Source: a virus
Reading direction: 5' to 3' (one strand)
Virus record (IMG/VR): IMGVR_UViG_3300037296_000160
Coordinates: 1-53,674 of that record
DNA: 53,674 nt
Shown: in pieces, positions 1 to 53,674 of the stretch
Position numbering within the stretch: position 1 is the first letter of the stretch
How the letters are laid out: the number at the start of each line of letters is the position of its first letter
Notes under the pieces: model-generated
Database searches by the model: none
The model's input: only the letters and a program-made list of their open reading frames with translations
Told to the model about the DNA's origin: nothing
Translations under genes and position numbers: made by a program

Positions 1-426
1 TGGAAGGCGACCGCTACCTGTTCACCACCTATTCGCAGCTACAGGCCGTGAAGGGCAAAGAACCAGAGCGCCGCCCGCTTTTGCGCGCACTGGCAGGCAA
101 TGCCATGTTCCTGCTGGACGAAAGCCACGAGGCTGGCGGTCAGGCTGACACAGGCTGGAAAGACCCCGACGCGGTAGCCGACCGCGCGACGTTCATGCGC
201 GAAGTGCTGGCAATGGCAAAGGGGGCCGTGTTTTCGTCGGCCACCTACGCCAAGAACCCAACTGTCATGTCCCTCTACGCCAAGACGGACCTGTCACTCG
301 CCGTTGAAGATATCAGCGAACTAGGGGCCGCTATCGCGCTGGGCGGCGTCCCGCTGCAACAGGCCATCGCCAACATGCTTGTCGAAGCCGGTCAGTATGC
401 CCGCCGTGAACGCTCATTTGAGGGCG
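1..426. repeat. Left copy of imperfect terminal overlap
   Basis: This stretch is repeated at 53249-53674 with four substitutions (positions 62, 170, 191 and 299 here). All four fall at third codon positions of the giant open frame; three are synonymous and one exchanges Asp for Glu. It marks the contig ends of a circular or circularly permuted genome of about 53,248 bp. Confidence 0.95.
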
Positions 427-3400
427 TCTCTATGGCCCTGACGCCGCTCGATATCAACATGACGGTTGCGACGGACACCATCGCCCGCGTGGCCGATATC
501 TTTGACGCTGACATGCTTGTCATGCAGGCCGCGCGCAAAGACGCCATCGAGAACCTAAAGGCGGACGGCCACGCCGAAACGAAGGATGGAGCCGTCGGTG
601 TAGAGAGCGGCGACAGCACCAACTTTGCCGCCGTCATCCACAACGTCGTGAACCAGATGCTACTGGCGTTGAAGGTGGACGCCGTGGCCGACCGGGCAAT
701 TCAGGCTTGGAAGGACGGCGAAAAGCCGATCATGGCCGTCTACAACACCAACGGCGCGCTACTGGATGCGATGATCGAGGGCGAGGGCTTGAGCGTTGGC
801 GACAAGGTCGATCTGCCGTTCAAGGTTATCTTGCACAACTACATCGAGCGCCTGCGCCGCATCACGGTCAAAGACGGCAAGAACGGCGAGGCAATCCGCA
901 TTGACCTGACCGACGCCCAGCTTGGCAGCCGCGCCGCGACCATGCTCAAGAAGCTGCATGAGGACGTGGACAACACCGACTTTGGCAAACTGTCCGCGTC
1001 ACCGCTGGACCTGCTGCACGACAAAATGCGCGCCGCTGGCATGAAGACGGGCGAAATCACGGGCCGCAGCCGCGTCATCGAGGACGGCATCTTGACCGCC
1101 CGCGATGCGTCCAGCGCCGCAAAGAAGCGCACCATGGCCGCATACAACAAGGGCGGGGCAGGGGGCTATGACGCCCTAATCATCAACCAATCCGGCAGCA
1201 CCGGGTTTTCGCTTCACGCGACCGCCCTCAAGGGCAATGACGGCAAGCAACGCCTGATGATCGTCATGCAAGCAGACCCGAACATTGACGTGTTCATGCA
1301 GATGCTAGGCCGCATCCACCGCACCGGGCAAATCCTGTTGCCCAAGTATGAAATCGCCGTCACGCCGCTGGCCGCTGAAAAGCGGGGGTCTGCAATCTTG
1401 ATGCGCAAAATGGCATCGCTGAACGCCAACACGACCGCATCCAAGGACAGCGCCGTCACCTTGGACAACGTCACCGACTTCCTTAACGAAGTGGGCGACA
1501 AGGTCATGCGCCGGTATCTGGCCGAGAACTTCGACTTGGCCGTGCGTCTGGACCTCGATCTGGACAAAGAGAACATCGCGCAGAAGGCGACGGGCCGCAT
1601 GTCGATCCTGCCGCCCGTGGATGCTGAACGCATCTATTCGGAAATTGAAGAACTCTACGCCGCCGAAATCGACGAACTGAACCGCTTGGGCGAGAACCCC
1701 CTAGAGGCGCAAGTCTACGATTGGCAGGCAAAAGAGATATCCAGCGCCGTCATCGAGGCGGGAAAAGGATCTTCTTCGCCGTTCGACGCCGATACCGTGA
1801 TGAAATACCTGTCTGTGCGCCGCCTGACCAAACCCTACTCATGGGACGAGGTGCAGGACCGCTTGGCAGAGGCACAGGACGGCATCACCGGGGAAAGCCG
1901 CGTAGAGGCCGCAGCCGCGCACGTCGGGGAGGTAGGCACCGCCTACATGCACACCCTGCAAGACAAGGTGGACGCGCTGCGCAACACTTGGGAGAAGACG
2001 CGCGCCGAAGACGACAAGGCCGATAACACCGAAGGTTCAACCAAAACGATCAAGGCCAAGAAGGCATACGACGCAGCGGTCAAGCGGTTTGACGAGGCGC
2101 GCACCTCGATTGAAAACACCTTGTCGCGCCTGTCCGACTTTGAACCCGGCACCGCCGTTATGATTGGCACGTCGCGGGGCCATATGTATGGCGTCATCCT
2201 CGATCTGGACGCCAGCGCCATGACCAACAACCCATTGGCGTTGTCCAAGGTCGCTATCCGCATCGCCGTCGCGGACGCAGCGCGTGAGCTGCGCGTTCCA
2301 CTAAGCCGCTTCACCGGCACCGACGCACTGACCATCGAGCCAGCGCCCGCCGATATGGTGCAATTCAACTTCGACAGCGGGCAATCGAGCGCCCGCGAGG
2401 TCCGCGCCGTGGCGACCGGCAACCTTATCAACGCCTTTGCGCGCTTTGGCACGGGCCGCATTGCCTTCTACACCGACGAGAACGGGGCGACACAAACAGG
2501 CGTCGTCATGCCTGCCACGTTCGACGTGCGCGCCGAGTTGGAGCGCGAACCTGTGCGCTTCAAGACCCCCGAACAGGTCACAGCGTTCCTTAATGGGGGC
2601 GACCGCATTGTCGATACTGGCGACGGTGCCCTGACGATCAAGCGCACGGGCTACGAGAACTACGAACTGACGGCCAGCACACGGGCCAAGGTTTACTACG
2701 TCGGCAAGGCCGTGACCGATATCACCGGGCAATGGACGAAGCGCGGCAGCGCCCCGGCCAAGATCACGGTGACAAGCGCGGCAGACCTAAACAAGCTGCT
2801 GGCCGTCTACACCGACATGATCCAGCCGCACTTTGTCACGCACAGCTACAAGGGCGAGGCGCGCGAAATCACAGGCGATGCACTGCCAGATATCAAAGCG
2901 CCCGCAGGGGCGGCAGAGAAGCGCGCGCAACCCCGCAATCTGCGCAAGCGCCGCGACAACCTGCGCAGAAGCCTGTTCATGCGTCTGGCCGACACGGGCA
3001 TGGCCGACGAGGTCAGCTTGCAGCTTGCGCGCAAGATCGTCAGCCGCACCGGCACCCCGCTCGAAGGTTTCCAAAAGGGCAGCGTCATCGCCGTGGCGAT
3101 GGACAGCGCGAACCCCGAAAGCGCCCTCGATCACGAGATTGTCCACGCGATGCGCGACAGCAAGCTATGGGGCAGGGAAGGGGGGCTATTCGGCACCGCG
3201 GATTGGCGCGCATTGGTCAAACAGGTGCGCCGCCAGCCCCAACGCCTCAAGGCCATGCAAGACCTGTATCCCGATCTGGACAGCGCCGCGCAGATGGAAG
3301 AAGCCGTTGCCGAACTCTATGCCGATTATCGCGCAGGACGCGACGTAGATACGGCGCAGGGCATCATGGGCCGAGTGCAAGCGATGCTCGAAACCATAGG

Positions 3401-6400
3401 CCAGGTTCTTAGACGGGAGGGCTATCGGTCTGGCAAAGAGGTCATGGCCGCAATGGCAAATGGCACCCTAGCCGCCCGCGCCCGCGCCGATCTGACAACG
3501 CCGCCAGACGGGGGATCGACCCCGCCAGAGGGGGCAAAAGAGCGCCGCAAAAAATCGGCCGGCACGGCAACCGCCGAAAGCAAAGCGGCCAGCATCGTCA
3601 ACCGCGCCATCGACGCCAGCATGGAGTTGGCCGAGAAGGCAAAGGACGCCGCCACAAAGCAATCTGCCCGCGCGCTTCTATCGAACATGATGGATCACGG
3701 GCAGACGGGCACCTCGATCCTTGCGCTAGTGCCGGGCCGTCCGCTGTTGACGGAACTGGCGCGCAACCTGCCGTCCGCGCGCATCTACCTGCTGGCGAAA
3801 GAGGCCATGGACGCCACGCGCCAGCATTGGGCCGTGGACACCGATACCGTCGCAAAGAAGTGGCAATGGCAGGCGGTGCGCAACAAGACCGCCAATGACC
3901 AGTTTATGAGCCTGATGCACGACGCCACGCTTGCAGGGATCGACCCGGCAGAGGGGGGCATGGACCCGGCCACGCTGGAACGCTTGGTGAAAGAGGAAAC
4001 CGGGGCCGATCCGAAGGCCGACCCCGCCATCGTGCGCGCCAAGATCAAAGGCAACTTCACCGACTTTGTCGCCCGCTATCACGATCTACCCAAGCCGTTC
4101 CAAGACCTTTGGGCCGAGGTCCGCGATATGTATGGCCGTCTGGCCGACGAATGGGACAAGGCCATCATCGACAACCACGAACACGCCGTTGAGCGCGCCA
4201 TCCACAAGATGCGCGAAGAAAACGAGCGCGAGCAGGTCATCGTGGAGGCGGGCACCCTGTCCAAAAAGGACAAGGCCAAGGCCATCGAGCGCCTGCGCAA
4301 CGAAATCGCAGACGCCGAGAAGCGCGCACGGGAGAGCGGCAAGCGGCGCATGGGGGAACTGCGCGCCGCGTTCGAGAGCAACCGCACCTCAAAGCCCTAT
4401 TTCCCGCTGGCGCGCTTTGGCAATTACTACGTCACCCTCAAAGACGAGGCGGGCAAAGTCGTGTCCTTCAGCAAGTTTAAGGGCCAGAAGGAACAGGAGC
4501 GGTTTGCAGCCGAACACGAAGGCAAGTTTGAGGTCATTACCGGCGTCATGCAGCAAGACGGCAACCGTCTGGACAAGTCCGTTGACGCGGGCTTTGTGGC
4601 CGAGGTGGCAGATATTCTATCGCGCGACGGCGTGGATGATGACGTCATGGACGCGATCTGGCAGCGGTATCTGGAAACCATGCCCGATATGTCCCTGCGC
4701 AAGAGCCGCATCCACCGCAAAGGCACCGAAGGTTACACGCAAGACGCGCTGCGATCGTTCGGCAATCACATGTTCCACGGCGCGCACCAGCTTGCCCGGT
4801 TGAAGCATCAGAACGACATGCAAGACGCCCTCGATGACATGGCCGATCAGGCGAAGGCGTCCAAAGACCCCAACCGCGCCATGCACGTCGTCAATGAAAT
4901 CAGCCGCCGCCATGAGTTTACCATGTCGCCTAAAAACGCAGGCTGGACCGCGACCGCGTCTAGCTTGGCGTTTGTCTGGTATCTGGGGGCCACGCCAGCC
5001 GCAGCCATGGTCAACCTGACACAGACCACCATTATCGGCATCCCCATGATGCGCGCCCGCTACAAGAAATCCAGCACGGGCGACGTCACCCGCGAACTGG
5101 GCAGCGCATTGCGCGACTTTGGGCAGGGCAAGGGATACGCGGACAAGTCGTCCAAGCTGACCGCCAAAGAGCGCGAGGCGATGGACGCGGGCTATGATCG
5201 CGGCCTGATGGACAAGACGCAGGCCAGCGATATCGCGGGCATTGCGGAAACCGGCATCGAGTATAACCCGATCCGGTCACAGGCCATGGCAGTTATCGGC
5301 TTCATGTATCACCACGCAGAGCGCGCCAACCGGGAGGTCACATTTCTTGCGTCCTACCGCTTGGGCATCAAGGAAGGCTTGCCCCATGCCAGCGCCATCG
5401 ACCGGGCCGCAGATGCAACGTGGGATATCCATTTTGACTACCAAAACAACAGCCGTCCGCGCTTCATGCAAGACGATTTTCCCAAGGTTTTACTGACCTT
5501 TCGAGCGTTCCAAGTGAACATGATCTATCGCATGGTGCGCGACACGCACCAATCGTTGCACGGGGCCACACCGGAACTGCGCACCGAGGCGCGGCGTCAG
5601 CTTATCGGCATCACCGGGCAAATGGCGCTACATGCTGGCATCACCGGAACATGGGGCTACGGCATGGTCATGATGATCGTCGGGCTGTTCTTTAGCGCAG
5701 CCGGGGCCGACGACGAGCCAGAGCAAGCCTTGAAGAAGCTGATGGTAGGATCGACTGACCCAACCACGGCGCTGGGCCATGCGCGCCGCTTTATAGGGTC
5801 TATGGCGCTATACGGTGTTCCCGGCACCCTGACCGGCACCGCCCTGTCAGATCGCATTGGTATGCCTAACCTGTGGTTCCGTGACCCCTACAAAGACATG
5901 GAGGGCCGCGAAGCCTACACCAACTACCTGCAACAGCTTGTCGGCCCGGTGCCCGGTCTGGCGGAAAAGGGCTTTGTGGGTATGTCGCAACTGATGGACG
6001 GCAAGGTCGAGCGCGGCATCGAGAGCATGGTGCCCAAGTTTGTCCGCGACGGTATGCGGTCTGTGCGCTACCTGTCCGAAGGCGTGACCACCTACAGCAA
6101 CGAAGACCCGGTTGTAGAGCATGTATCGCCCTATCAGGCGCTTGTGCAGGCGCTGGGCCTGACCCCGGCGCAGATTGCCGAACGCTATGACACCAACAAC
6201 GCGATCAAGCGTCTGGAAGGCCGCATCGAGGACGCGCGCAGCGATACGCTGGGCACGATCCGCAAGGCGGTGCGTGACACAGGGGCACTGACACCTGACG
6301 CCGTGGACGCGCTGCACCGCTACAACGCCAAGTATCCCGAATGGATTATCGACCGGGGCACGATCAAGCGGTCACTGTCTGGCGCGCGCCGCGCATCCCA

Positions 6401-6482
6401 GAACAACACGGGCGGTATCAACATCAATGACAAGATCGCAGACCGCGTCTTGGGAAAGGTGGCCCCGACCGTCTTTGATTAA
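3..6482 (+). CDS. Giant polyvalent protein, C-terminal part (strawberry-notch helicase, zincin, LPD38)
   Basis: This is the 3' part of the gene that begins at 44941 and crosses the contig ends in the same frame. The first ATG at 48 is internal, because the frame is already open from base 3. Numbering from 44941, it covers residues about 2771-4929. It opens in the middle of the helicase, with DESH at 2809-2812 and the LGRIHRTGQ helicase-C signature near 3204, as in strawberry-notch (SNO) ATPases. A helicase-associated region follows. A zincin motif HEIVH lies at 3814-3818. A long charged helical region comes next, then a C-terminal block from about residue 4350 (helical, with NREVTFLASYRLG and SRPRFMQ) that matches my memory of LPD38, a large polyvalent-protein domain. 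Hydrophobic helices occur at nt 5640-5700. Polyvalent proteins of phages and conjugative elements are known to travel with injected DNA and counter host defences; that role here is inference. The gene ends at TAA 6480-6482, before a terminator. Confidence 0.85.
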   Translation, partial: EGDRYLFTTYSQLQAVKGKEPERRPLLRALAGNAMFLLDESHEAGGQADTGWKDPDAVADRATFMREVLAMAKGAVFSSATYAKNPTVMSLYAKTDLSLAVEDISELGAAIALGGVPLQQAIANMLVEAGQYARRERSFEGVSMALTPLDINMTVATDTIARVADIFDADMLVMQAARKDAIENLKADGHAETKDGAVGVESGDSTNFAAVIHNVVNQMLLALKVDAVADRAIQAWKDGEKPIMAVYNTNGALLDAMIEGEGLSVGDKVDLPFKVILHNYIERLRRITVKDGKNGEAIRIDLTDAQLGSRAATMLKKLHEDVDNTDFGKLSASPLDLLHDKMRAAGMKTGEITGRSRVIEDGILTARDASSAAKKRTMAAYNKGGAGGYDALIINQSGSTGFSLHATALKGNDGKQRLMIVMQADPNIDVFMQMLGRIHRTGQILLPKYEIAVTPLAAEKRGSAILMRKMASLNANTTASKDSAVTLDNVTDFLNEVGDKVMRRYLAENFDLAVRLDLDLDKENIAQKATGRMSILPPVDAERIYSEIEELYAAEIDELNRLGENPLEAQVYDWQAKEISSAVIEAGKGSSSPFDADTVMKYLSVRRLTKPYSWDEVQDRLAEAQDGITGESRVEAAAAHVGEVGTAYMHTLQDKVDALRNTWEKTRAEDDKADNTEGSTKTIKAKKAYDAAVKRFDEARTSIENTLSRLSDFEPGTAVMIGTSRGHMYGVILDLDASAMTNNPLALSKVAIRIAVADAARELRVPLSRFTGTDALTIEPAPADMVQFNFDSGQSSAREVRAVATGNLINAFARFGTGRIAFYTDENGATQTGVVMPATFDVRAELEREPVRFKTPEQVTAFLNGGDRIVDTGDGALTIKRTGYENYELTASTRAKVYYVGKAVTDITGQWTKRGSAPAKITVTSAADLNKLLAVYTDMIQPHFVTHSYKGEAREITGDALPDIKAPAGAAEKRAQPRNLRKRRDNLRRSLFMRLADTGMADEVSLQLARKIVSRTGTPLEGFQKGSVIAVAMDSANPESALDHEIVHAMRDSKLWGREGGLFGTADWRALVKQVRRQPQRLKAMQDLYPDLDSAAQMEEAVAELYADYRAGRDVDTAQGIMGRVQAMLETIGQVLRREGYRSGKEVMAAMANGTLAARARADLTTPPDGGSTPPEGAKERRKKSAGTATAESKAASIVNRAIDASMELAEKAKDAATKQSARALLSNMMDHGQTGTSILALVPGRPLLTELARNLPSARIYLLAKEAMDATRQHWAVDTDTVAKKWQWQAVRNKTANDQFMSLMHDATLAGIDPAEGGMDPATLERLVKEETGADPKADPAIVRAKIKGNFTDFVARYHDLPKPFQDLWAEVRDMYGRLADEWDKAIIDNHEHAVERAIHKMREENEREQVIVEAGTLSKKDKAKAIERLRNEIADAEKRARESGKRRMGELRAAFESNRTSKPYFPLARFGNYYVTLKDEAGKVVSFSKFKGQKEQERFAAEHEGKFEVITGVMQQDGNRLDKSVDAGFVAEVADILSRDGVDDDVMDAIWQRYLETMPDMSLRKSRIHRKGTEGYTQDALRSFGNHMFHGAHQLARLKHQNDMQDALDDMADQAKASKDPNRAMHVVNEISRRHEFTMSPKNAGWTATASSLAFVWYLGATPAAAMVNLTQTTIIGIPMMRARYKKSSTGDVTRELGSALRDFGQGKGYADKSSKLTAKEREAMDAGYDRGLMDKTQASDIAGIAETGIEYNPIRSQAMAVIGFMYHHAERANREVTFLASYRLGIKEGLPHASAIDRAADATWDIHFDYQNNSRPRFMQDDFPKVLLTFRAFQVNMIYRMVRDTHQSLHGATPELRTEARRQLIGITGQMALHAGITGTWGYGMVMMIVGLFFSAAGADDEPEQALKKLMVGSTDPTTALGHARRFIGSMALYGVPGTLTGTALSDRIGMPNLWFRDPYKDMEGREAYTNYLQQLVGPVPGLAEKGFVGMSQLMDGKVERGIESMVPKFVRDGMRSVRYLSEGVTTYSNEDPVVEHVSPYQALVQALGLTPAQIAERYDTNNAIKRLEGRIEDARSDTLGTIRKAVRDTGALTPDAVDALHRYNAKYPEWIIDRGTIKRSLSGARRASQNNTGGININDKIADRVLGKVAPTVFD

Positions 6483-7022: not shown

Positions 7023-7558
7023 TCCACACATTGAAAGGCCACAACCACAGCATCGTGATACTCGCGCTTCTTATCCTTATGGCGCAGACGACGGAGTGGG
7101 GGCGCAGCATCTACATCACGCACGTCGCCGACCCCATCTGGATCAGAACCGAGGTCGAGATAATCCCTCAAGCAATGGGCCAGCCACCAAAGATCGAGTA
7201 TTCCAAGGAGACAGACCGGCCCGTTCGCGCCGTCTGGACAGCCATTGTGCGCGGCCACGACCACACGCGCTTGTCTACGCGCCGGGGCGATGGAAACTAC
7301 TTTACCAGCGCCGGGGAAGCGTCCCCCATTTGGTCATGGGACGCCTTCTTTGACGACGGTATCCGCAACGCGCCCCGCGTCCCCATGGAGCCGTTCATGG
7401 TGTGCGTCTGGTATCGCGCGTCTGACCTGCGCGTCGATCTAACCCGCGACACCCCCGAATACTGCTCAAGCGTCTTTGACCCCCGCGTCAACCGCCTTGT
7501 CGGCAGCACGGAAAACCCCATCAAAACTCAAGCCCTCAAAGAAGGATTGCTGCCATGA
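7019..7558 (+). CDS. Membrane-anchored protein of the lysis cassette, unknown function
   Basis: A 179-residue protein with a single N-terminal hydrophobic segment (residues ~11-24) followed by a soluble domain with two late cysteines. It is predicted to face the periplasm (N-in anchor). The start overlaps the upstream stop (ATGA) and its own stop overlaps the endolysin start, so the three genes are translationally coupled. I do not recognise a domain. It could be a lysis accessory protein or an antiholin-like regulator. Confidence 0.65.
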   Translation: MIHTLKGHNHSIVILALLILMAQTTEWGRSIYITHVADPIWIRTEVEIIPQAMGQPPKIEYSKETDRPVRAVWTAIVRGHDHTRLSTRRGDGNYFTSAGEASPIWSWDAFFDDGIRNAPRVPMEPFMVCVWYRASDLRVDLTRDTPEYCSSVFDPRVNRLVGSTENPIKTQALKEGLLP

Positions 7559-8574
7559 CCCTATCGCCAAACGGGCGCATTGTCGCCGCTGCGCGCGCAA
7601 CCGTCGGGATTAAGGAAATCCCCGGCATGTTGCATAACCCCAAGATCATCGAAATGGCGAAGGCCGTCGGGCATGGCTGGGTGAAGGATGACGAAACCCC
7701 GTGGTGCGCGTCCTACGTCGGCTGGGTGTTGCTGACATGCGGCATCAAAGGCACGGGCAAGCTAAACGCGCGGTCCTACCTCGATTGGGGCGAAGTCGTA
7801 GAGATTGCCGACGCCAAGCCCGGTGACGTCTGCATCCTCACGCGGGGCGATCCGAATAGCTGGACCGGCCACGTCTTCTTTGTCACCAAGATCGACAACA
7901 AGCGCATCTACGGCATTGGCGGCAACCAGAGCAACGCCGTCACCGAAGCCAGCTACTTGCGCAATAGCAAGGTTCTAGGCGTTCGCCGCGCCCCCGGTGG
8001 CTTGAAGGCTGGCCCTATCGCATCCAAGCCACTGGCCGAGTTGGGCGGCTACAACGAACGCGCATTGGTCATGCTTTATCAGTCCAAGCTGAAAGAAAAG
8101 GGCTACCCGCTGGGCGAGGTAGACGGTCTGTTTGGCAAGCTGACCCGCGACGCCGTCATGGCCTATCAGGCTGACAACGGCCTGACCGTGACCGGCGCAA
8201 TCGACGGCACGACCGCCGACCTGCTGCTGAACGGCAACAGCAAGCGCCTACTGCCTGATGACCGCGCGCAGATCACCGCCGACGAACTGGAAGCGCGTGG
8301 GTCTGACACGATCCGCGAAGCCAACGGCGGCAAAACCACGTCCATCGTCACGCTTATCGGCAGCGTCTTTAGCTACCTGTTCGCCGCCAAGGACGACATT
8401 GCCAGCGTTGTGGCGACCGCAGAGGGCACCGCCGCGAAAGCGGGCGATCTAGCCCCCTACGCCATCCCCCTGTTCCTTGGCGCGGTCGCGCTTGTCCTGC
8501 TGCTGCGCCATTTCAGCCGCATCAAGGAAGCCCGCGTAGACGACGCGCGCACCGGCAAGAACATCGGGCGCTGA
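7555..8574 (+). CDS. Endolysin: cysteine peptidase/amidase, peptidoglycan-binding domain, C-terminal membrane segment
   Basis: A 339-residue protein. Residues ~1-150 resemble the CHAP/TIGR02594-type family: TPWCASYVGWVL supplies the nucleophilic Cys and GHVFFV the His. Residues ~160-225 form a PG_binding_1-type domain (LKEKGYPLGEVDGLFGKLT, AYQADNGL). The C-terminal third has a hydrophobic helix near residues 300-318 and a basic tail, so the enzyme may be membrane tethered rather than freely soluble. It cleaves peptidoglycan at lysis. The cassette context and ATGA coupling to the upstream membrane protein support the role. Which bond is cut cannot be told from sequence. Confidence 0.85.
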   Translation: MTLSPNGRIVAAARATVGIKEIPGMLHNPKIIEMAKAVGHGWVKDDETPWCASYVGWVLLTCGIKGTGKLNARSYLDWGEVVEIADAKPGDVCILTRGDPNSWTGHVFFVTKIDNKRIYGIGGNQSNAVTEASYLRNSKVLGVRRAPGGLKAGPIASKPLAELGGYNERALVMLYQSKLKEKGYPLGEVDGLFGKLTRDAVMAYQADNGLTVTGAIDGTTADLLLNGNSKRLLPDDRAQITADELEARGSDTIREANGGKTTSIVTLIGSVFSYLFAAKDDIASVVATAEGTAAKAGDLAPYAIPLFLGAVALVLLLRHFSRIKEARVDDARTGKNIGR

Positions 8575-21115: not shown

Positions 21116-21141
21116 ACAACGCCGCCCAGGTGCTTACCAAA

Positions 21142-22417: not shown

Positions 22418-22421
22418 GAAA

Positions 22422-40017: not shown

Positions 40018-40301
40018 ACGGCGTCGGCCCCTACTGGTTCCCCGCGTGGCTGCGCGCGTGGCTGACCCGGCAATTCAACCGCGTGTTCGATGAAGCGTCA
40101 CCCGTGCGCCACGACGAAAGCTATGCGCGCGGATACCCTGCGCGCGACGTGTGCGACCGGGGCATGTTGGCCGCGATGCTGCGCGACACCTCCCGTATGA
40201 CGTCCACCGGGCGAATGTTTGCCGCTACCGTGGTTTCGTGGTTATTCTGGGGCTTCAACCGGCTGTTTGGTTGGGTCAGCTACAACAGGGGCAACCGATG
40301 A
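40014..40301 (+). CDS. Small protein with C-terminal hydrophobic segment
   Basis: A 95-residue protein from ATG 40014, Trp-rich at the start (YWFPAWLRAWLTRQF) with GYPARDVCDRGML in the middle and a hydrophobic stretch near the C-terminus. The 3' half contains GTGGT-TTC-GTGGT. No family recognised. Confidence 0.6.
   Translation: MNGVGPYWFPAWLRAWLTRQFNRVFDEASPVRHDESYARGYPARDVCDRGMLAAMLRDTSRMTSTGRMFAATVVSWLFWGFNRLFGWVSYNRGNR
40230..40242 (-). repeat. Two-unit ACCAC array, minus orientation
   Basis: GTGGT-TTC-GTGGT, two perfect units at 8 bp, identical to 13 bases of the parA operator. It sits 153 bp from the array at 40395 and in the opposite orientation. Confidence 0.5.
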
Positions 40302-41735: not shown

Positions 41736-42859
41736 GCGGGGGATTAAGCGCCATTGCGGGCCTTGTCGCAGGCAACAACATGCGAAACGAGCCGTCGTTT
41801 CTTGATCGCAAGGGCCGGTCACTGCGCAACGCCATCGACACGCGCCTTATGCCAGACACCGCAGAGGCGCAGCAGACCTTGCGCGCACCCGCCATCACGC
41901 AGCCAGTTGATCCCGCGCAGGCGCAGCAGACCATGCCCGCGCCCGCTATCACGCAGCCAGTTGATCCCGCGCAAGCGCAGCAGAACGCCACAGCCGCGCG
42001 GCCCCTGTTGTTTCAGCTAAACGACAGGTTTGAAGGCGGCGGGCAATATGACACCCTGTTTGGGCATAGCCAGCGCGACAAGTTTTCAAACGTAGACGTG
42101 TCGAGCATGACAATCGGCCAGCTAAAGCAGTTTTCCGATCCCAACGGCGAATACGGCCAGTGGGTCAAAGGGGAACTTGGCCGCATTGGGCAAAAGCCGC
42201 GCGTTGCAACCCCCATGGGCGGGCACCAGATCGTTGGCACGACGCTGCGCAATGCGGCCACAGACATGGGCCTGTCCGACGACACCGTGTTTAACGTCGC
42301 CACGCAGGACGCCATCGCCATGCACTTGGCCCGCAACCGCATCAATTCCGCAGGCACCATGGAAGGCAAGCGCGCGGCATTGCGGGCCGAGTGGGAAGGA
42401 TACGCCAAGGCATCCGATGCGGAACTGGACGCCGCTATCATGGAAATCGAGGGTCTGCCCGCCAACGCATCCTTTGCAGGGCCAAGCGGCAGCCAAGCGC
42501 GCGGCACCCCGCCGTTTTTCCCTACGGGCGCGACCGAAGGGCCAGCCGCGCAGCAGCAGGTCGAACAGATCGCACAGGTGCAGCCAACCGAGGCAAGCCA
42601 GATGCAGTCGTCCGAAGCGACCGCCCCGGTATCGAGTGGCGGCGCTGGTGGATCACCGGGCGGCGAAGGCAGCAAGCGCGGGCGCAGCCTGCCAAGCCCG
42701 ACCCAGAGCGCACAAGCGGCCCCGGCACAGATCGAGGCACCGCAGGGCGCACCACAGTCCACCATGCAGGGCAGCGCACCCGCGCCCCGTGACGTCGCAG
42801 GCGAACGCCGCGAACAAGCTGCATGGCTGGGCCAATTCTTCGCAACAAAAGGAGCCTGA
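41732..42859 (+). CDS. Virion-associated protein with muramidase-like domain
   Basis: A 375-residue protein. Residues ~90-215 (YDTLFGHSQRDKF, VDVSSMTIGQLKQF, VATPMGGHQIVGTTLRNAA, FNVATQDAIAMHL) resemble a phage lysozyme/muramidase domain with the conserved PMGxxQI motif. It would open a hole in peptidoglycan during DNA injection. Residues ~45-85 are a tandem repeat and the C-terminal 130 residues are Pro/Ala/Gln linker-like. The catalytic Glu cannot be assigned with certainty. Confidence 0.72.
   Translation: MSGGLSAIAGLVAGNNMRNEPSFLDRKGRSLRNAIDTRLMPDTAEAQQTLRAPAITQPVDPAQAQQTMPAPAITQPVDPAQAQQNATAARPLLFQLNDRFEGGGQYDTLFGHSQRDKFSNVDVSSMTIGQLKQFSDPNGEYGQWVKGELGRIGQKPRVATPMGGHQIVGTTLRNAATDMGLSDDTVFNVATQDAIAMHLARNRINSAGTMEGKRAALRAEWEGYAKASDAELDAAIMEIEGLPANASFAGPSGSQARGTPPFFPTGATEGPAAQQQVEQIAQVQPTEASQMQSSEATAPVSSGGAGGSPGGEGSKRGRSLPSPTQSAQAAPAQIEAPQGAPQSTMQGSAPAPRDVAGERREQAAWLGQFFATKGA
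41867..41985 (+). repeat. 54-bp tandem repeat in the muramidase-like gene
   Basis: Two units starting at 41867 and 41921 and a partial third at 41975, each encoding an 18-residue AQAQQT-x-x-APAITQPVDP-type linker. Copy number could vary between strains. Confidence 0.85.
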
Positions 42860-44862: not shown

Positions 44863-44940
44863 TACCCTAGCCCCATCATAACACAGACCTACAGCGCAGG
44901 ACGTGCTGGCGTCTCACCTTGCCCCAAGGAGAGTGCCGTC

Positions 44941-47900
44941 ATGGCCATTAAACCGCGTTCGTTGTCCAACGTGTTCAGCCAAAGCCCCATGCAAGAGGCT
45001 TTGACCACTAAACCGAAAACCCAAAAGACCACGTCGCCCCTCAAGGGATTTGAGGGCATGGCAAAGCAAACGGGCGTCCCGGTCAACATCCTCATGGCCG
45101 AGGCAGAGCGCGCAGGCACCGATGACCCCCGCATGATCGCCACCCGCGCCGCAGCGTGGCAATCGCGCCTGACGTCTGGCGCACAAGTGCCCGATATCGC
45201 CGCCGAACTGGTGCCCGAAGACACGACCACGTTCCTTAACCGCGCCATCGAGATTGACCGCGCCACCTATGGCAGCGAAATCGAGGTTCCCGACGCGGCC
45301 CCGGCCACCCCGGCAAAGGGTGAAGCTGGCGGCATCGAGAACACGGCGCGCACCGTTGGCGGGGCGATGACACGTTTTGGTGCAAGCACCCTCAAGGGCA
45401 TCGGGATTGCAACCGACACCGTGGCCGACGTTGCCACCCTTGGGCAATCGCGCCGCGACATTGACCAGTTTCGTCGCGATGCGGGCTTGCGGGACAAAGA
45501 CGCACCGGGGCCGCAGCGCGGCGACTTCTTCACCGACGCCATGGATATCGCAGCCGAACCCCTGCGCGATGCAGCCGACGGCATCGAGGCGGGCCGCAGC
45601 AGCGATCTAAACGAGGCCATTGCAGCAACGTCGCTAGAGGGCGAACTGTTCGACCCGCGCACTTGGGAAGTATCCGAGGACGCCACCTTGCGCGGTTTCG
45701 CGCACAAAGGTCTGGCCGTTCTGGGCGACCTGCTACCCATCGTTGGTGCCGCCGTTGTCACCCGCAGCCCCGCCGTTGGCGGTGTGCTGGGCGGTCTGTC
45801 CGCTGGCGGTGCCGCTGGACAGGATGCGCGCGACCGCGTGTATGCCGCAGCAGAGGAACGCGACGAAAGCGGCGTGTCCGCGCTTGAGAAAAGCGACAAG
45901 TTTCAAGAACTGGTAGAGCGCGGCCTATCCACGGATGAAGCCACCGAACAGCTTGCAGTCAATGCCGAGCGTTGGGCCGGACAGGTTGCAGGCGTCATTG
46001 GCGGCGCAGGCGGCGTCGCCACCACTAAGATCATGGCCCCCCTTGAAGGCAAGGCGCTGACAAACAGCGTTGCAGGCCGCGTCGGTCTGGCAGCGGTAGA
46101 AGAAGGCGGGCAGGAAGTCGCGGAAGGCGTGGGGCAGCGCATGGCGACCAACGCCGCGACCGGCCTTGAAGACAACGTCATGGACGGCACCCTAGAGGAG
46201 TTTGCGCTTGGCGGCGTGGCTGGCGGTGCCCTTGGCGGCGCATCGACTGCCTTTGACCGGGCCACCCCGCCCGCAGAGCCTACGCCCCCTGCCCTGCCCG
46301 CGCCCGATCTGGTGACGCCGCCCCCGTCCGCATACGGGCCAGACGGCAACCTGCTACCCGAAAACACCGCACCCCCTGCGCGCCCCAAAGGCCGCTTGGA
46401 GGCGATGATGGACGCGACCATGCCGCCTATGGCCATGCCCGCGCCGACCCTGCCTACACCCGCTGAAACACCCGCCCCAGCCGCAAACCCTGCCCCCCAG
46501 GATTTAATGGACGACGGCGCAGTGCTTGAAGACCTGCCGCCCCGCGACTTTGTGGGCGAACGGCAGGCGGCACAGGCGCGCTTGGCCCAACTGGACGCCA
46601 ACGACCGCCGCAATGGCGCGACCACCGAGAGCCTTGAGGCCCGCAACAAGGTCCGCGCCGAACTGGCAGAACTGCCGGTTGATACTGTGCCCATGGGCAC
46701 CTTTGACGCAGGCACCGACCCAGACAGCGGCAAAATCATCACCGCGACCGTGGCCGACGCAGGACCATTTGACTACGAAACCACATACCCATCCCCTGAT
46801 ATCGACCTCTACACCGCAGCCGCGCGCGCGGGCATGATCCTGCCCACCACGCCGCAGGAAACGGCCATGTTCGTTGAACGGGGCTTGGGAGCGTTGACGG
46901 ATGCTGTTTTGGATCAGCGCGCCGCAAAGGCCGGAAGCCCAAAGGCAAAGCGGGCGCAAAAAGCGATTGACGGCATCGTGGCAGACCTTGCTGCGATCTA
47001 TAAGCCCGAAGACGTGGCCGACATGCAGGCCGCAGTCACAGGCTACGCCGACAGCATCGAGGCCAGCGCACAGCCCGCCCCGGCAGACGTCCCGGCCACA
47101 GACGCACCGGCAGAGACACCCGCCCCGTCCGAGGCTGACCTGCGCGCACAGATCGCCGCCGCGACCAATGCCGCGCTGGATGAAGCTGACGCCGCCGAGG
47201 ACGCCGCCAAGCCGTCCAAGCCAATGCCCGCGACCGCTATGCCGCCATCGAGCGTGACGAACAGCGTCAAGATGCTGGCCGACGCTAACTTTTTCCCCAA
47301 GGATGGATCGCCCAACACCTATGAGCGCACCGTGGGCGGCAAAGGCCAGCGTATCGAGCGCGTCAAAGACGGCTGGCGTCTGATGGAGGACGGCAAGGTC
47401 ATCGCCAAAGCCAAGGGCGAAGACGGCATCCTGTCCCTGTCCAACTTCCTGCAAGAGCCAGATGCGGCTATGCCGCCGACCGCCATGCCGCCCGCAACCC
47501 TGCCAGCGGCCAAGCCAGACGCCAAACCTGCGCCTATGCCCGCAACGTCCATGCCGCCGCCCACCGTGCAGCCAGACGCCAAGCCCAAGGAAGATATCAA
47601 CGACCTTATGGCCGACGCGCGCAAACGCCGCGCGGATCGCACTGCGCAGGTGGCGGACCTGTCCAAGACAGATGACCCCGTCCGCATGACGAACAAGGCG
47701 GGCGATTTGGCCGTTCTGGTATCCCCCGCAGCCGACCGCCCCGGCAAATGGCGCGCAACCTACATGGGCGCGGACAAGAAGCCGTCGGGCCATGTTGACG
47801 CGGAGACGAAAGCCGAAGCCCTTGAGCGCGCCTTTGAGGACGGGTTTACCGTGGCCGACCAATCGACCACTAAACCACAAGACGACGCGACCACGGACAA

Positions 47901-50900
47901 GGCAGCAATGCCCGCAACCGCCATGCCGCCCCCGACCGTCAACGCACCCGACCCGAACCCCACCGACGGCCAGAAGGAAGCAGGCAACTACCGCAAGAAG
48001 CACGTCCGCTGGAATGGGCTGGATATCAGCATCGAAACCGCCAAGGGCCAAGAGCGCACCGGCACCGGGCCAGACGGCACACGCTGGGCCGTGACCATGC
48101 CCGCCGACTATGGCGACATCAAAGGCACCACAGGCGCAGACGGCGACCCGCTCGATATCTACATGGGCGAACTGGAAGGCAGCGACACCGTTGTCATCGT
48201 CAACCAAGTGGACGAGCGCACAGGCGCGTTTGACGAACACAAGATCATCGTGGGCACGGGCAGCACCGCCGCCGCGCTGCGCATGTATGAGGAAGGTTTC
48301 AGCGACGGCAAAGGCAAGAGCCGTATCGGATCGTATAGCACGACGTCGCAGGCAGGCTTGAAGGCGTGGATTGAAACCGCCGACCACACCAAGCCCACCG
48401 AACCCGTCAAAGCAAAACCAAAAGCCGACGAAACCGCGAAACCACAAGACGACGCGACCACGGACGACGCGGACGCGGACGGCAGCGATGACACCGCCGC
48501 ACCCAAGGGCGACAAGATTGAAGACTTTGGCGAGAAGATTGGCGGCGCGCGCAAGGACAAGGCGCGGCGCATGGCCGAAGACCTCGCCACTGATATCGAC
48601 GCGGCCAGCATGACCATGACCGAGGCGTTCCCCGTGCCCGACTATGAGGCACTTGCAGCCAGCGGTGTCCCGCACAACAGCCTTGCCATGATCGCAGCCC
48701 TGCGCGCCGCAATCCCGCGCAAGACCCGGCGCAACCGCCGTGGCTGGGCCACAGACGTAGAGGCATCGCGCAAGATCGTCGCGGCCATCGTCGCAGGCGA
48801 GTTGGAAGGCGATACCGTATCTGCGCAAGCCAACGCACAGGTCAGCAACAGCGGGGGATGGAGCGGGCTTGGCGAAGGCACCATTGAAGCCTTTCAGAAA
48901 CTACCGACCTCGATGCTGCACGAAGCGTCTACGCTGGCCGTGGTGCGCGCGACCTTTGGCCGGTCTGACGACGGCAAGACCAACACCATCGTCAGCTACA
49001 CCGTTGGGCCATTGAGCAAATGGAGCGGTTTGCGCGTCACCACCACGGACGACGCTGCAAAGGAGCTGATGCGCCTTGTCGCGCGCGCCCGCGATGACCG
49101 GGCCAGCAAGGCAGGCACCGGGGGCCGCAAGCCGGTCAAGCTGGGCGTCTACAAGCGCACAAGCGACGAGACGTGGTTTGTTGGTTTCAAGGTTTCGGAC
49201 GTCCTGCCGCTATCGCCTAACTTTGAAAGCGCCGCCGCAGCGCGCACCTACATGAACGACAACACCGAGGCGCTGCAAAAGGCCGCTGATGACCTGCGCG
49301 ACGGGCCGCGAGAGCGCACCGACCGCAACCGCAAGCGCAAGGGGCCAGCACACCGGGAGGGCGACGTTACCCCCGAAATGTTCACGGATGCTTTCGGTTT
49401 CCGTGGTGTAGAGTTTGGCAACTGGAACAACGCCAAGGACCGCCAGAACAGCCTAAACGACGCCTACGACGCATTGACCGACCTTGCGGGCTTGCTGGAC
49501 CTGCCAACCAAAGCCATGTCGCTGGACGGCACCCTTGGCCTTGCGTTCGGCGCGCGCGGCACCGGGGGCAAGAACCCCGCCGCAGCCCACTATGAGCCTG
49601 ACAAGATCGTCATCAACCTGACTAAGCGGTCTGGCGCAGGATCGCTGGCCCACGAATGGTTTCATGCAATAGACCACCACCTTGCGCGCATCGACGCCGC
49701 AGAAGGTGGATCGTCCGCAGCCCTGACCGGGGCGACGGCGCGCAATCGCAGCGAATACATGTCTGACCGTCGGTCATCGGGCGCTGGGCGCACCAAGGAC
49801 GCAGCCGAGGCGTTCAACGCCCTGCGCAAAGCCCTGACCGCCGATCACCCGTGGTTCAAGCGCAGCAAGGAAGCCGACAAGGGCCGCTCAAAGCCCTACT
49901 TTGCGACCACCATCGAACTGGCTGCGCGTTCGTTTGAGAAATACGTCATCGACCGCCTGACAACCCGCGACATGGTCAACGACTACCTTGCCAACATCGA
50001 CGGCATGAGCGGCGCATATCCATCCACCCGCGAAATGGCGAACACGGATATCCGCACCGCATGGGATGCTGCGCTGGCGTCGATCACCACCACCTTGGAC
50101 GCAGGCACCGACAACGTGCCGACCTTGCCCAATGCAGACACAAGCCGCCTGTATGAAGGGCCAGAGGCGGGCGAAATCTGGGAAAGCCCCGAAGGCCGCA
50201 AGAAGATCGAGAGCCGCGACGGCGATACCTTCTACATCAATTCGCCCGACGGCAGCACCGAAGTCATGTCAGGGGCCGAGGTAGACGAACAGATTGCCGC
50301 CGACCGGGCGGCGTTGGAAGCCGCCACGCAGGCAAAGAAGGAAGCGCGCACCGAGGCGTATCAGGATCAAACCGCCCGCAACACGGAATGGGAGGATCGC
50401 GCCCGCACCGAGATTGCCAAGTTTGAGGCCGACGCCAAGCGCAAACCCGGCGCAGTGCAATCCAAGCTGTTCGGCAAGACCTACAACTTCCGCGACTATG
50501 GTATGCTGTCACGCGGCGGCATGATGATCGCGCGACTAGATGAAGGCTGGCGCGTCAGCGAGGGCGGCGACCGCCGATTGTCCCGCAACCTGCGCGGACC
50601 CAAAGGCGAAGTCTACAGCGCGGACACATGGACCAAGGGCGGTCTGGATTTTGCCGAATGGTATGGCAATATCCTCGATGCGCGCGCCAAGTCCAAGGTA
50701 GCACCGGCAAAGCCCAAGGCGAAGGCAAAGACCGAGGACGAACTGCGCGCCGAAATCAACGCCGCCACGGTCGCGGCGCTGGATGAAGCCGACGCCGCAG
50801 AAGGGCAGGGGACCGACACCACAAAACCACAAGACCAACAGGCCACGGGACCACGCACGGCAGGTCAAGCCGCAGCGAGCGCGGCAGGCAACCTTGGCAC

Positions 50901-53674
50901 CGCAGCCGATGAAGCCATGACCGCGCTGCGTAAGCTGTTTGGCGATCCTAACACGCTGAACATGGGGCCAGCGTTTTCGCGGGACACATACCGCAACGCC
51001 AAGCCGCACTTTGACGCCGTCGTCCGGTCCTTGGGCGCAGCTAAGACCGATCTGGCAGACCTCGCCCGCGCGCTGGTCCGGTTTCTGTCCAAGCAAGACA
51101 TGGACAAGGACGCCCGCCGCGCGATGCAGCCCTACCTCGAAGAATACTTGTTTGAGGTGCAGTCCAAGGCACACGACCCGTTCAACCCACAGGAGGAAGC
51201 CGCCGATGCAGCCAGCACAGACGACACGCCGAAAGGTGACGCGCCTGATACTGAAACCCAAGAGCCGAGTGAAGTGCCGGTATCGCCGGAACAGCCCGTG
51301 GAACCACCGGTTGCCGATGGAGGGATGCAGCCCGTCACAGACGCCGCGCTTGCCCGTTTCCGTGAGGGCGATGGATTTGCAAACATCGTGCAAGCCCGCA
51401 AGCTGGCAGGCGAAACGCTGGACCGCCCGATCACCGAGGCCGATTACAAGGCCGTCGAAGAAGCTATCGAGGAAGCTATCGTTGTCCGCGCCCGCGAACT
51501 AATCGCAGAAGGCCGCGACCCACAGGCGACATATCAGTCCCTTGTGGACCTCTACGCCATGCAGCCCCTATTGGCGCAGCGCACGTCCAACAGCATGGAA
51601 CTGCAAGCCTACTCAACCCCGGCACCGCTGGCCTATCTGGCGTCCCAGCTTGCAGGCGTGACAAACGAAAACACCGTATTGGAGCCGACCGCAGGCATGG
51701 GGATGCTGACCATTGGCGCAGATGCGTCCAAGGTCATCGCCAACGAACTGGACCCAGAGCGCGCGGCCACGATTAGCCGCACCACACCGGGGGCGACTGT
51801 CACCGCACTGGACGCCACAAAGGCCACGTTTGCGCCCGCTGACGTCGTCATCGCTAACCCGCCGTTTGGCGGCGTGTTCGTGGACGGCAAGCGCCAGCAA
51901 TGGCCCATGGGGCAAACCAAGACGCGCGAAGTGGATCACGCGATTGCGTGGCGCGCGCTGGACGCCATGCCCGACAACGGCACCGCCGTCTTGATCCTTG
52001 GCGGGGTCAAGAAGCAACTGACAGGCGATGACCGCGTCAAAGCCTACCGCAGCGCCGCCAAGGGCAGCTTCTACGCCAACCTCTACGACGCCTATAACGT
52101 GGTGGATCACTTCACCGTGGACGGCGATCTATACAAGCGGCAGGGCGCAGGCTGGCCCGTGGACGTCATCGTTATCCGTGGCCGGGGCAAATCGCTGAAC
52201 CCCTTGCCACAGAAGGAAGCACCCCCCATCTTGAACACATGGGGCGAATTAGAAGGAAAATTGGACCTTGCTGATAGTTTGGGCACCGCCGAAGTCACCG
52301 CCGACCGCACTGGTAGCGGTCAACCTACCGGAAACGGGGGAGCGCAAGCTGACCCTGCTGGCGTTCGAGGGTCTAATGCTGACCAAAATGGCGGAGTTGA
52401 TACAACACGCCGACCCAGCGGAACTGACACGGATGCAGGAACTAGAACCGGCAATCCGTCTGCCGAACAGCAAAGACCCGCTAACGCTGGCGACGTCGAT
52501 ACTGGATCAGACGGACGAACGGGACGCGCTGGGGCTGAACCCGACAGCGTTCCCGGTAACGCTGACCAAAGCGGATCACAGCGAGGAAATGGAAGCAGCG
52601 ATGCAGGAGCAAACGCTGGACGACCTGCTGACAGCACTCGGAGCGTAGCCAAGCGCGCGGCCAACACAGAGGCCGAAAGCGCGTTCCAAGTCCAATACGA
52701 ACCCCGCTCGAAAGCCACCTTTGCCGTGGGCACCCTTGTCCCGGTCAAGATGCAAGACGCCATGAAAAAGGCGCTAGACAGCATCGAGAAGCGCAACGGC
52801 GACATTGACGCCTTTGTCGCCAAGTCGCTGGACTATGACCTTGATGCGATGCTGGGCACCGATACCAAGCCCGGTTACTTTTCTGCCGAACAGGTCGATG
52901 CGCTGGCTATGGCCATCGACAACGTGGGGCAGGGCAAGGGCTTCATCATTGGCGACCAGACCGGCGTGGGCAAAGGCCGCTTTGTTGCCGCCATGCTGCG
53001 CTTTGCAGAGAAGCAGGGCATCACACCTATCTTTGTGACCAAAGACCCCGGCTTGTTTGGCGACATGGTCCGCGACCTGCGCGACATTGGCGAAGACCAA
53101 GCATCGAGCGGCATTTTCCCGACCAACACCACCCTGCGCGGCAGCGGCGCACTGCCCCTGTCTGACAACGCAGGCGACACGCTGGAAAGCCGCAAGCCCG
53201 CAGAGCATAAGAAGGCCGTAGCCGAAATGCTGGCAAGCGGTCAGCTTGTGGAAGGCGACCGCTACCTGTTCACCACCTATTCGCAGCTACAGGCCGTGAA
53301 GGGCAAAGAGCCAGAGCGCCGCCCGCTTTTGCGCGCACTGGCAGGCAATGCCATGTTCCTGCTGGACGAAAGCCACGAGGCTGGCGGTCAGGCTGACACA
53401 GGCTGGAAAGACCCCGAAGCGGTAGCCGACCGCGCGACCTTCATGCGCGAAGTGCTGGCAATGGCAAAGGGGGCCGTGTTTTCGTCGGCCACCTACGCCA
53501 AGAACCCAACTGTCATGTCCCTCTACGCCAAGACGGACCTGTCACTAGCCGTTGAAGATATCAGCGAACTAGGGGCCGCTATCGCGCTGGGCGGCGTCCC
53601 GCTGCAACAGGCCATCGCCAACATGCTTGTCGAAGCCGGTCAGTATGCCCGCCGTGAACGCTCATTTGAGGGCG
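44941..53674 (+). CDS. Giant polyvalent protein, N-terminal part (InPase-like, LPD5, LPD1, adenine methyltransferase, helicase start)
   Basis: The frame runs without a stop from ATG 44941 (AAGGAG nine bases upstream) to the contig end and continues at base 3, for 4,929 residues in total. Domains seen: hydrophobic ejection-like helices near 250-290 and 345-400; Pro-rich linkers; an inorganic-pyrophosphatase-like polyvalent domain (~1015-1150); LPD5 (GEKIGGARKD, from ~1190); LPD1 (FGNWNNAKDRQ, LGLAFGARG) ending in zincin HEWFH at 1571-1575; an N6-adenine methyltransferase with LEPTAGMGML at 2247 and NPPF at 2306-2309; a Gly/Asp-rich linker (~2438-2569); and helicase Walker A GDQTGVGKGR at 2671-2680 and DESH at 2809. 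The combination matches polyvalent proteins such as DarB-type antirestriction factors. A defence-countering, injected role is inferred. Confidence 0.88.
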   Translation, partial: MAIKPRSLSNVFSQSPMQEALTTKPKTQKTTSPLKGFEGMAKQTGVPVNILMAEAERAGTDDPRMIATRAAAWQSRLTSGAQVPDIAAELVPEDTTTFLNRAIEIDRATYGSEIEVPDAAPATPAKGEAGGIENTARTVGGAMTRFGASTLKGIGIATDTVADVATLGQSRRDIDQFRRDAGLRDKDAPGPQRGDFFTDAMDIAAEPLRDAADGIEAGRSSDLNEAIAATSLEGELFDPRTWEVSEDATLRGFAHKGLAVLGDLLPIVGAAVVTRSPAVGGVLGGLSAGGAAGQDARDRVYAAAEERDESGVSALEKSDKFQELVERGLSTDEATEQLAVNAERWAGQVAGVIGGAGGVATTKIMAPLEGKALTNSVAGRVGLAAVEEGGQEVAEGVGQRMATNAATGLEDNVMDGTLEEFALGGVAGGALGGASTAFDRATPPAEPTPPALPAPDLVTPPPSAYGPDGNLLPENTAPPARPKGRLEAMMDATMPPMAMPAPTLPTPAETPAPAANPAPQDLMDDGAVLEDLPPRDFVGERQAAQARLAQLDANDRRNGATTESLEARNKVRAELAELPVDTVPMGTFDAGTDPDSGKIITATVADAGPFDYETTYPSPDIDLYTAAARAGMILPTTPQETAMFVERGLGALTDAVLDQRAAKAGSPKAKRAQKAIDGIVADLAAIYKPEDVADMQAAVTGYADSIEASAQPAPADVPATDAPAETPAPSEADLRAQIAAATNAALDEADAAEDAAKPSKPMPATAMPPSSVTNSVKMLADANFFPKDGSPNTYERTVGGKGQRIERVKDGWRLMEDGKVIAKAKGEDGILSLSNFLQEPDAAMPPTAMPPATLPAAKPDAKPAPMPATSMPPPTVQPDAKPKEDINDLMADARKRRADRTAQVADLSKTDDPVRMTNKAGDLAVLVSPAADRPGKWRATYMGADKKPSGHVDAETKAEALERAFEDGFTVADQSTTKPQDDATTDKAAMPATAMPPPTVNAPDPNPTDGQKEAGNYRKKHVRWNGLDISIETAKGQERTGTGPDGTRWAVTMPADYGDIKGTTGADGDPLDIYMGELEGSDTVVIVNQVDERTGAFDEHKIIVGTGSTAAALRMYEEGFSDGKGKSRIGSYSTTSQAGLKAWIETADHTKPTEPVKAKPKADETAKPQDDATTDDADADGSDDTAAPKGDKIEDFGEKIGGARKDKARRMAEDLATDIDAASMTMTEAFPVPDYEALAASGVPHNSLAMIAALRAAIPRKTRRNRRGWATDVEASRKIVAAIVAGELEGDTVSAQANAQVSNSGGWSGLGEGTIEAFQKLPTSMLHEASTLAVVRATFGRSDDGKTNTIVSYTVGPLSKWSGLRVTTTDDAAKELMRLVARARDDRASKAGTGGRKPVKLGVYKRTSDETWFVGFKVSDVLPLSPNFESAAAARTYMNDNTEALQKAADDLRDGPRERTDRNRKRKGPAHREGDVTPEMFTDAFGFRGVEFGNWNNAKDRQNSLNDAYDALTDLAGLLDLPTKAMSLDGTLGLAFGARGTGGKNPAAAHYEPDKIVINLTKRSGAGSLAHEWFHAIDHHLARIDAAEGGSSAALTGATARNRSEYMSDRRSSGAGRTKDAAEAFNALRKALTADHPWFKRSKEADKGRSKPYFATTIELAARSFEKYVIDRLTTRDMVNDYLANIDGMSGAYPSTREMANTDIRTAWDAALASITTTLDAGTDNVPTLPNADTSRLYEGPEAGEIWESPEGRKKIESRDGDTFYINSPDGSTEVMSGAEVDEQIAADRAALEAATQAKKEARTEAYQDQTARNTEWEDRARTEIAKFEADAKRKPGAVQSKLFGKTYNFRDYGMLSRGGMMIARLDEGWRVSEGGDRRLSRNLRGPKGEVYSADTWTKGGLDFAEWYGNILDARAKSKVAPAKPKAKAKTEDELRAEINAATVAALDEADAAEGQGTDTTKPQDQQATGPRTAGQAAASAAGNLGTAADEAMTALRKLFGDPNTLNMGPAFSRDTYRNAKPHFDAVVRSLGAAKTDLADLARALVRFLSKQDMDKDARRAMQPYLEEYLFEVQSKAHDPFNPQEEAADAASTDDTPKGDAPDTETQEPSEVPVSPEQPVEPPVADGGMQPVTDAALARFREGDGFANIVQARKLAGETLDRPITEADYKAVEEAIEEAIVVRARELIAEGRDPQATYQSLVDLYAMQPLLAQRTSNSMELQAYSTPAPLAYLASQLAGVTNENTVLEPTAGMGMLTIGADASKVIANELDPERAATISRTTPGATVTALDATKATFAPADVVIANPPFGGVFVDGKRQQWPMGQTKTREVDHAIAWRALDAMPDNGTAVLILGGVKKQLTGDDRVKAYRSAAKGSFYANLYDAYNVVDHFTVDGDLYKRQGAGWPVDVIVIRGRGKSLNPLPQKEAPPILNTWGELEGKLDLADSLGTAEVTADRTGSGQPTGNGGAQADPAGVRGSNADQNGGVDTTRRPSGTDTDAGTRTGNPSAEQQRPANAGDVDTGSDGRTGRAGAEPDSVPGNADQSGSQRGNGSSDAGANAGRPADSTRSVAKRAANTEAESAFQVQYEPRSKATFAVGTLVPVKMQDAMKKALDSIEKRNGDIDAFVAKSLDYDLDAMLGTDTKPGYFSAEQVDALAMAIDNVGQGKGFIIGDQTGVGKGRFVAAMLRFAEKQGITPIFVTKDPGLFGDMVRDLRDIGEDQASSGIFPTNTTLRGSGALPLSDNAGDTLESRKPAEHKKAVAEMLASGQLVEGDRYLFTTYSQLQAVKGKEPERRPLLRALAGNAMFLLDESHEAGGQADTGWKDPEAVADRATFMREVLAMAKGAVFSSATYAKNPTVMSLYAKTDLSLAVEDISELGAAIALGGVPLQQAIANMLVEAGQYARRERSFEG
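45004..45035 (+). repeat. 8-bp-phased ACCAC array (giant gene, 5' end)
   Basis: ACCAC-TAA-ACCGA-AAA-CCCAA-AAG-ACCAC-GTC: four registers at period 8, the outer two perfect and the inner two degenerate. It lies in codons 22-32 of the giant gene. Confidence 0.45.
46764..46787 (+). repeat. Degenerate 8-bp-phased ACCAC array
   Basis: ACCAT-TTG-ACTAC-GAA-ACCAC-ATA, with CCCAT in the next register. One perfect box, the others one mismatch each. Confidence 0.35.
47858..47897 (+). repeat. 8-bp-phased ACCAC array, five units
   Basis: ACCAA-TCG-ACCAC-TAA-ACCAC-AAG-ACGAC-GCG-ACCAC-GGA. Three boxes are perfect and two have one mismatch. It encodes the linker TTKPQDDATTD just before the pyrophosphatase-like domain of the giant protein. 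Confidence 0.65.
48417..48464 (+). repeat. 8-bp-phased ACCAC array, six units
   Basis: Boxes in register: ACCAA, CCGAC, ACCGC, ACCAC, ACGAC, ACCAC, with spacers AAG, GAA, GAA, AAG, GCG, GGA. It encodes the linker between the pyrophosphatase-like domain and LPD5. Confidence 0.6.
49173..49196 (-). repeat. Degenerate 8-bp-phased ACCAC array, minus orientation
   Basis: On the plus strand GTGGT-TTG-TTGGT-TTC-AAGGT-TTC, so in minus orientation ACCTT, ACCAA and ACCAC at period 8. It lies in a folded part of the giant protein (encoding WFVGFKVS), not a linker. Confidence 0.4.
50818..50857 (+). repeat. 8-bp-phased ACCAC array, five units
   Basis: ACCAC-AAA-ACCAC-AAG-ACCAA-CAG-GCCAC-GGG-ACCAC-GCA. 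Three perfect boxes and two with one mismatch, in the linker after LPD1. Confidence 0.65.
52268..52648 (+). CDS. Nested overlapping gene candidate inside the giant gene (+1-shifted frame)
   Basis: A 126-residue frame starting at TTG 52268 with AAGGA (52253-52257) ten bases upstream and ending at TAG 52646-52648. It lies wholly within the Gly/Asp-rich linker between methyltransferase and helicase of the giant protein. Here the nested frame shows the high-G/C third-position pattern typical of real genes in this genome, while the giant frame shows unusually A/T-rich third positions. The product looks globular and helical (LLAFEGLMLTKMAELIQHAD, QEQTLDDLLTALGA). No family is recognised. The alternative is chance, because the giant frame's G-rich first positions become third positions in this frame. 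Confidence 0.4.
   Translation: MLIVWAPPKSPPTALVAVNLPETGERKLTLLAFEGLMLTKMAELIQHADPAELTRMQELEPAIRLPNSKDPLTLATSILDQTDERDALGLNPTAFPVTLTKADHSEEMEAAMQEQTLDDLLTALGA
53249..53674. repeat. Right copy of imperfect terminal overlap
   Basis: Repeats window positions 1-426 at an offset of 53,248 bp with four substitutions at 53310, 53418, 53439 and 53547. The frame is preserved, so the giant gene reads straight through the join. Confidence 0.95.

Follow-up and report, generated by a model that had tools for sequence, protein, structure and literature searches.

The window analysed here, a 53,674-base stretch of viral DNA (GC 60.8%), encodes a giant polyvalent protein whose methylase-translocase module appears to be a plug-in. 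It is reasonably likely that two types of this cassette, one with a strawberry-notch (SBNO) helicase and one of the DarB type, have been swapped at a fixed slot of an ejected chassis whose tail stays constant, and that the SBNO type is a second putative antirestriction enzyme. As a giant protein it is ordinary, and it is the cassette exchange that makes it moderately interesting.

The gene is cut by the ends of the contig. Its 5' part (44941..53674, + strand) encodes residues 1-2911 and is still open at the window end, whereas its 3' part lies at 1..6482 on the same strand, with base 3 as the first base of codon 2771. The coordinates heading the sequence-only reading (44941-53674) take in just the 5' part of the gene, the remainder being 1-6482. 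No exact overlap was found between the window ends, and an inexact one of 426 bp at 99.06% identity is present (53249..53674 against bases 1-426). Circularising the contig at this overlap, a check that the same reading had proposed, keeps the frame open through the join. The in-register join runs from the ATG at 44941, which is preceded by a Shine-Dalgarno-like AAGGAGAG (44926..44933, +), to the stop at 6480-6482 and comprises 4,929 sense codons plus one stop. The joined gene takes up 14,790 of the 53,248 bp of the circle (27.8%), in line with the earlier estimate of roughly 28% of the genome. Its GC3 is 0.75 overall and ranges from 0.71 to 0.79 along the gene. The longest open frame is 4,955 codons in the actual circle, compared with 394 in 20 shuffled circles.

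What if the join were an artefact, with ends from different strains or elements and two frames that are separate genes? The overlap is indeed inexact, with four mismatches in 426 bp. However, three of these are synonymous and the remaining one is a D/E exchange, so variation between strains, kept in check by purifying selection, looks a better account of them than sequencing error. The strongest check, and an independent one, comes from relatives on other contigs. L151 (5,129 aa) is a single uncut ORF that aligns to residues 1984-4927 at 41% identity, and the uncut frames of L152, L153, L154, and L156 also align through the junction, the five together at about 40-44% identity. With five frames passing the same point uncut, an artefactual join is barely credible, and the single frame of about 4,929 residues proposed from the window alone holds. 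A circular map also fits the published reports that JC1 and Parlo are circularly permuted or headful-packaged (PMC9144972; PMC6606913).

The product unites on one polypeptide several domains that differ widely in activity, LPDs among them, as in the polyvalent proteins of Iyer et al. (2017; PMC5512222), and its gene sits among late virion genes, as for polyvalent proteins of the phage type. The class assigned to it beforehand was therefore right, and so was most of the domain list. All features below are on the + strand. Residues 1-1000 are Ala- and Pro-rich and weakly similar to other giants. Proline-rich MPxT/MPPxT short linkers occur between small N-terminal domains at residues 762, 844, 849, 866, and 990 (about 47224-47922). 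They are followed by a pyrophosphatase (InPase) domain (residues 1010-1144, 47968..48372; Pfam PF18823, E=2e-43) with DGDPLD at residue 1067. The general DxDxxD motif is found in 88 of 94 InPase homologues, whereas few InPase relatives show the strict PPase signature DxD[PE]xD. LPD5 (residues 1368-1484, 49042..49392; Pfam PF18799) and a first zincin come next. A gamma-class adenine methylase occupies residues 2124-2425 or thereabouts (51310..52215), as judged from PHROG methyltransferase matches and alignment. Its motifs are STP, EPTAGMG, and NPPF (residue 2306), and such motifs have been described in polyvalent proteins for N6-adenine enzymes of the gamma class (PMC5512222).

The helicase spans the junction. 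Its N-terminal lobe (residues about 2580-2911, 52678..53673; Pfam AAA_34), of which the last 426 bases are repeated at 1-426, contains a Walker A motif at 2671 (GDQTGVGKGR), DESH at 2809, and SSAT at 2848. The C-terminal lobe extends to about residue 3320 (426..1652), with Pfam Helicase_C_4 (PF13871) at 1044-1520 and QMLGRIHRTGQ at residue 3203. The combination of AAA_34 and Helicase_C_4 with intact SF2 motifs identifies it as an SBNO helicase. In a relative, L066, the SBNO helicase (L066:3407-6793) has an intein-like insert right after Walker A (GDQTGIGKGR, the insert ending VTHN-C) at about 5450-6050, and this insert, which is absent from the window, matches a LAGLIDADG homing endonuclease.

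The C-terminus is where the domain list departs from what had been proposed. InPase, LPD5, LPD1, the methylase, the SBNO helicase, and a second zincin are all recovered by Pfam, NCBIfam, PHROG, or motifs, but the proposed C-terminal LPD38 has to be dropped, as it has no Pfam match in the giant protein or in any of nine aligned C-termini. In its place are LPD39 (residues 4005-4191, 3705..4265; Pfam PF18858, E=3e-37), matched by all nine of these C-termini, and PLxRFG/tail-700 (residues 4235-4916, 4395..6440; NCBIfam NF032893, E=4e-208, and alignment), the conserved tail of the family.

The two zincins deserve a closer look. Zincin 1 (residues 1466-1701, 49336..50043) has HEWFH at residue 1571 and is CLCA_X-like, matching NCBIfam NF041907 at E=4e-42. 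The match scores 144.5 bits over 230 positions and does not reach the curated cutoff of 260 bits, and zincin 1 is homologous to CLCA_X while lying outside the curated subfamily. An HExxH motif with a conserved downstream acidic residue, as in CLCA_X-type zincins, is present: HEW.H, Asp1578 (three residues further along), and the downstream Glu1659 are invariant in nine aligned sequences, and the stretch from HExxH to Glu varies in length by well over 100 residues. Glu1659 falls within Pfam LPD1 (PF18796; residues 1645-1716, 49873..50088, placed by Pfam and alignment), and it is therefore probable that LPD1 makes up the latter half of zincin 1 and is not a domain of its own. Among solved structures, an AlphaFold2 model of zincin 1 (pLDDT 72, pTM 0.78) comes closest to an HExxH zincin protease, though the match is weak (E 0.08). 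Since the fold matches are weak, it is from conservation that Glu1659 is proposed as the third zinc ligand. A 2013 paper suggested a nearby Asp, not Glu, as ligand (PMC3650047). Zincin 2 (residues about 3746-3922, 2928..3458; alignment and structure model) has HEIVH at 3814. HE..H and a downstream EE..AE are invariant in 15 sequences. The core of its model is well predicted and the fold matches to HExxH zincins are again weak.

The surroundings of the gene are those of the Bcep22-like giants, in that it is flanked by virion-protein genes and an endolysin gene. Upstream, PHROGs assign a GNAT gene (40151-40732), a virion protein gene (40752-41735), a phrog_14527 protein gene (41732-42859), and, as immediate neighbour, a second virion protein gene (about 42861-44834, from a candidate start). 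An endolysin/tail-lysozyme-like gene lies downstream (7555..8574), all of these being on the + strand. Elsewhere in the window, PHROGs place genes for the portal, the major head protein, and internal virion proteins, together with a phosphoadenosine phosphosulfate reductase-like gene at 28342-29202 that they class as auxiliary metabolic. The gene order around the giant gene is comparable in PEp14, POI1126, LASTA, and Skulduggery. A Rhodobacterales-type host is likely, because contigs from Paracoccus, Frigidibacter, Thioclava, and Rhodobacter are among those that hold the nearest relatives of the tail in cellular genomes.

In other words, this is a DarB-like giant of the kind already known from Bcep22-like podophages (3,700-5,000 aa), and its C-terminus of LPD39 plus PLxRFG/tail-700 is theirs too. 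Its size is unremarkable, because DarB-like giants of the same size and gene order are known: PEp14 has one of 4,914 aa, POI1126 of 4,841, Atu_ph08 of 4,877, and Mwe-JY07 of 4,985. The JC1 protein, gp69, has 4,515 aa, takes up 22.1% of its genome, and was detected in purified virions by mass spectrometry with 51 unique peptides (PMC9144972). JC1 gp69 and the giants of PEp14, POI1126, Atu_ph08, and Mwe-JY07 resemble the window protein in size, gene order, and the position of methylase and helicase N-terminal to the tail. The LPD39-PLxRFG tails of Bcep22-like giants are 36-41% identical to that of the window protein, and InPase is present in some. The polyvalent concept, InPase, the methylase-helicase pair, and occasional SBNO-type helicases have likewise been described (PMC5512222). 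In Sinorhizobium phage PBC5 (L010), the giant gene is annotated as a pair of DarB-like genes (6950-14524 and 16156-22698) that share a strand and are separated by a gap, which may be a genuine split or may stem from faulty sequencing.

However, the Bcep22-like giants carry a DarB/SNF2 cassette, whereas the window protein carries the uncommon SBNO type. BLAST detects no homology between SBNO and DarB-type helicases. Pfam gives SNF2-rel_dom plus N6_Mtase for POI1126 but AAA_34 plus Helicase_C_4 for the window protein, and the spacing from NPPF to DExH is 503 aa in the window protein as against 784-789 in POI1126, Atu_ph08, Mwe-JY07, and LASTA. A 5,391-aa protein of Bacteroides phage BS-TP4 has an InPase and an SBNO-methylase cassette with a spacing of 504 aa, much as in the window protein, but no LPD39/PLxRFG tail match. 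Like the window protein, L151, L152, L153, L154, L156, and L099, the last a prophage-like locus of Paracoccus onchidii, combine an SBNO cassette with the LPD39/PLxRFG tail in one frame. The N-terminal parts of these SBNO-bearing relatives vary; L151 also shares LPD5, CLCA_X, and zincin 2, and is without an InPase match. LPD5 proteins of Stx-converting phages resemble the LPD5-zincin-LPD1 stretch (residues 1189-1717, about 36% identity), which is all that tblastn matched.

P1 DarB shares with the window protein an adenine methylase coupled to an SF2 translocase, but it has 2,255 aa, a different helicase family, and no match to the tail. Many relatives have cassettes that P1 DarB does match (best E=2e-29), whereas against the window cassette it yields one short methylase stretch at E=0.004, and neither helicase nor tail of the window protein is matched. 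Orthology of the window cassette with DarB was rejected on these grounds together with the different Pfam helicase family. The PHROG "DarB-like antirestriction" family reaches the window protein mostly via the tail. When the methylase and the helicase N-lobe were compared by sequence with solved structures, one weak match resulted (E=0.016).

How often have the two cassettes been exchanged? A scan of viral contigs with the single C-terminal sequence found no relatives, and an alignment-based scan with the C-terminus recovered them. Relatives were gathered in two ways, by tail and by cassette. Among 105 non-redundant tail-bearing proteins, 53 have a DarB-type helicase, nine an SBNO helicase, none both, and 43 neither, some of the last only because the stretch is incomplete. 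Part of the search for SBNO-bearing loci went by cassette, and the ratio of 9:53 should therefore not be read as a frequency; the switch counts are independent of it. With 43 of 105 showing neither type, incomplete as some of them are, the cassette is not essential to the tail-bearing family. Both types occupy the same slot: the methylase precedes the helicase, and the distance from there to the tail is mostly 450-980 residues. Eight type switches, every one forced by supported branches, are required in a tree of 58 tails. A more careful tree of 36 tails, with the long-branched L131 left out, gives seven (bootstrap range 7-7), and a single origin is seen in none of its bootstrap trees. In the SBNO helicase tree, a single supported clade unites seven of the nine tail-bearing copies; L066 and L131 fall outside it. 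The simplest reading is that the SBNO type may have entered the lineage about three times and was then exchanged between related phages, "about three" being rough because the tree of helicases was built quickly and contains several long branches. Seven to eight switches at one slot favour the view that the cassettes are interchangeable in function, as an argument rather than a proof.

What might such a protein do? It is likely a polyvalent protein that a Bcep22-like podophage carries in its virion and ejects to counter restriction. It would be packaged in the head and ejected together with the DNA. Moving on the incoming DNA with the adenine methylase in tow, the SBNO-type translocase would then act in cis, either blocking type I-like restriction or letting the sites become methylated. 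The zincins would cleave the giant polypeptide into working units, and the InPase would clear pyrophosphate or a nucleotide signal. P1 DarB, a head protein, protects DNA in cis (PMC5512222, PMC9024508), and it is for DarB only that antirestriction has been demonstrated. Because the methylase-helicase of the window protein is of the SBNO type and not a DarB orthologue, its own link to antirestriction is by analogy. With that qualification, the general anti-defence reading suggested at the outset can be counted as right.

Perhaps the module mainly helps the virus to begin transcribing or replicating its DNA, or is aimed at a defence of another kind, with any effect of the injected protein on restriction being secondary. 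No experimentally tested SBNO-type phage protein was found in the literature searched, and Iyer et al. proposed that parts such as InPase act in early replication or transcription (PMC5512222). However, this is unlikely, given that SBNO occupies the slot of the DarB type, switches with it seven to eight times, and has retained the coupling of adenine methylase and translocase. The repeated exchange would be best explained if both types do the same job. Quite improbable is a mainly structural or DNA-ejection role in which the conserved tail matters and the enzyme domains are dispensable passengers. The tail is the sole part common to nearly all relatives and cassettes can be absent, but the catalytic residues of methylase, helicase, and zincins are invariant, unlike those of passengers.

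The window illustrates how the ends of a contig can conceal a phage's largest gene, and how the basis of a "DarB-like antirestriction" label can be a common tail that went undetected in P1 DarB itself. If the two cassettes are equivalent, their exchange would amount to an experiment of nature on how a methylase paired with a translocase shields incoming DNA from restriction.
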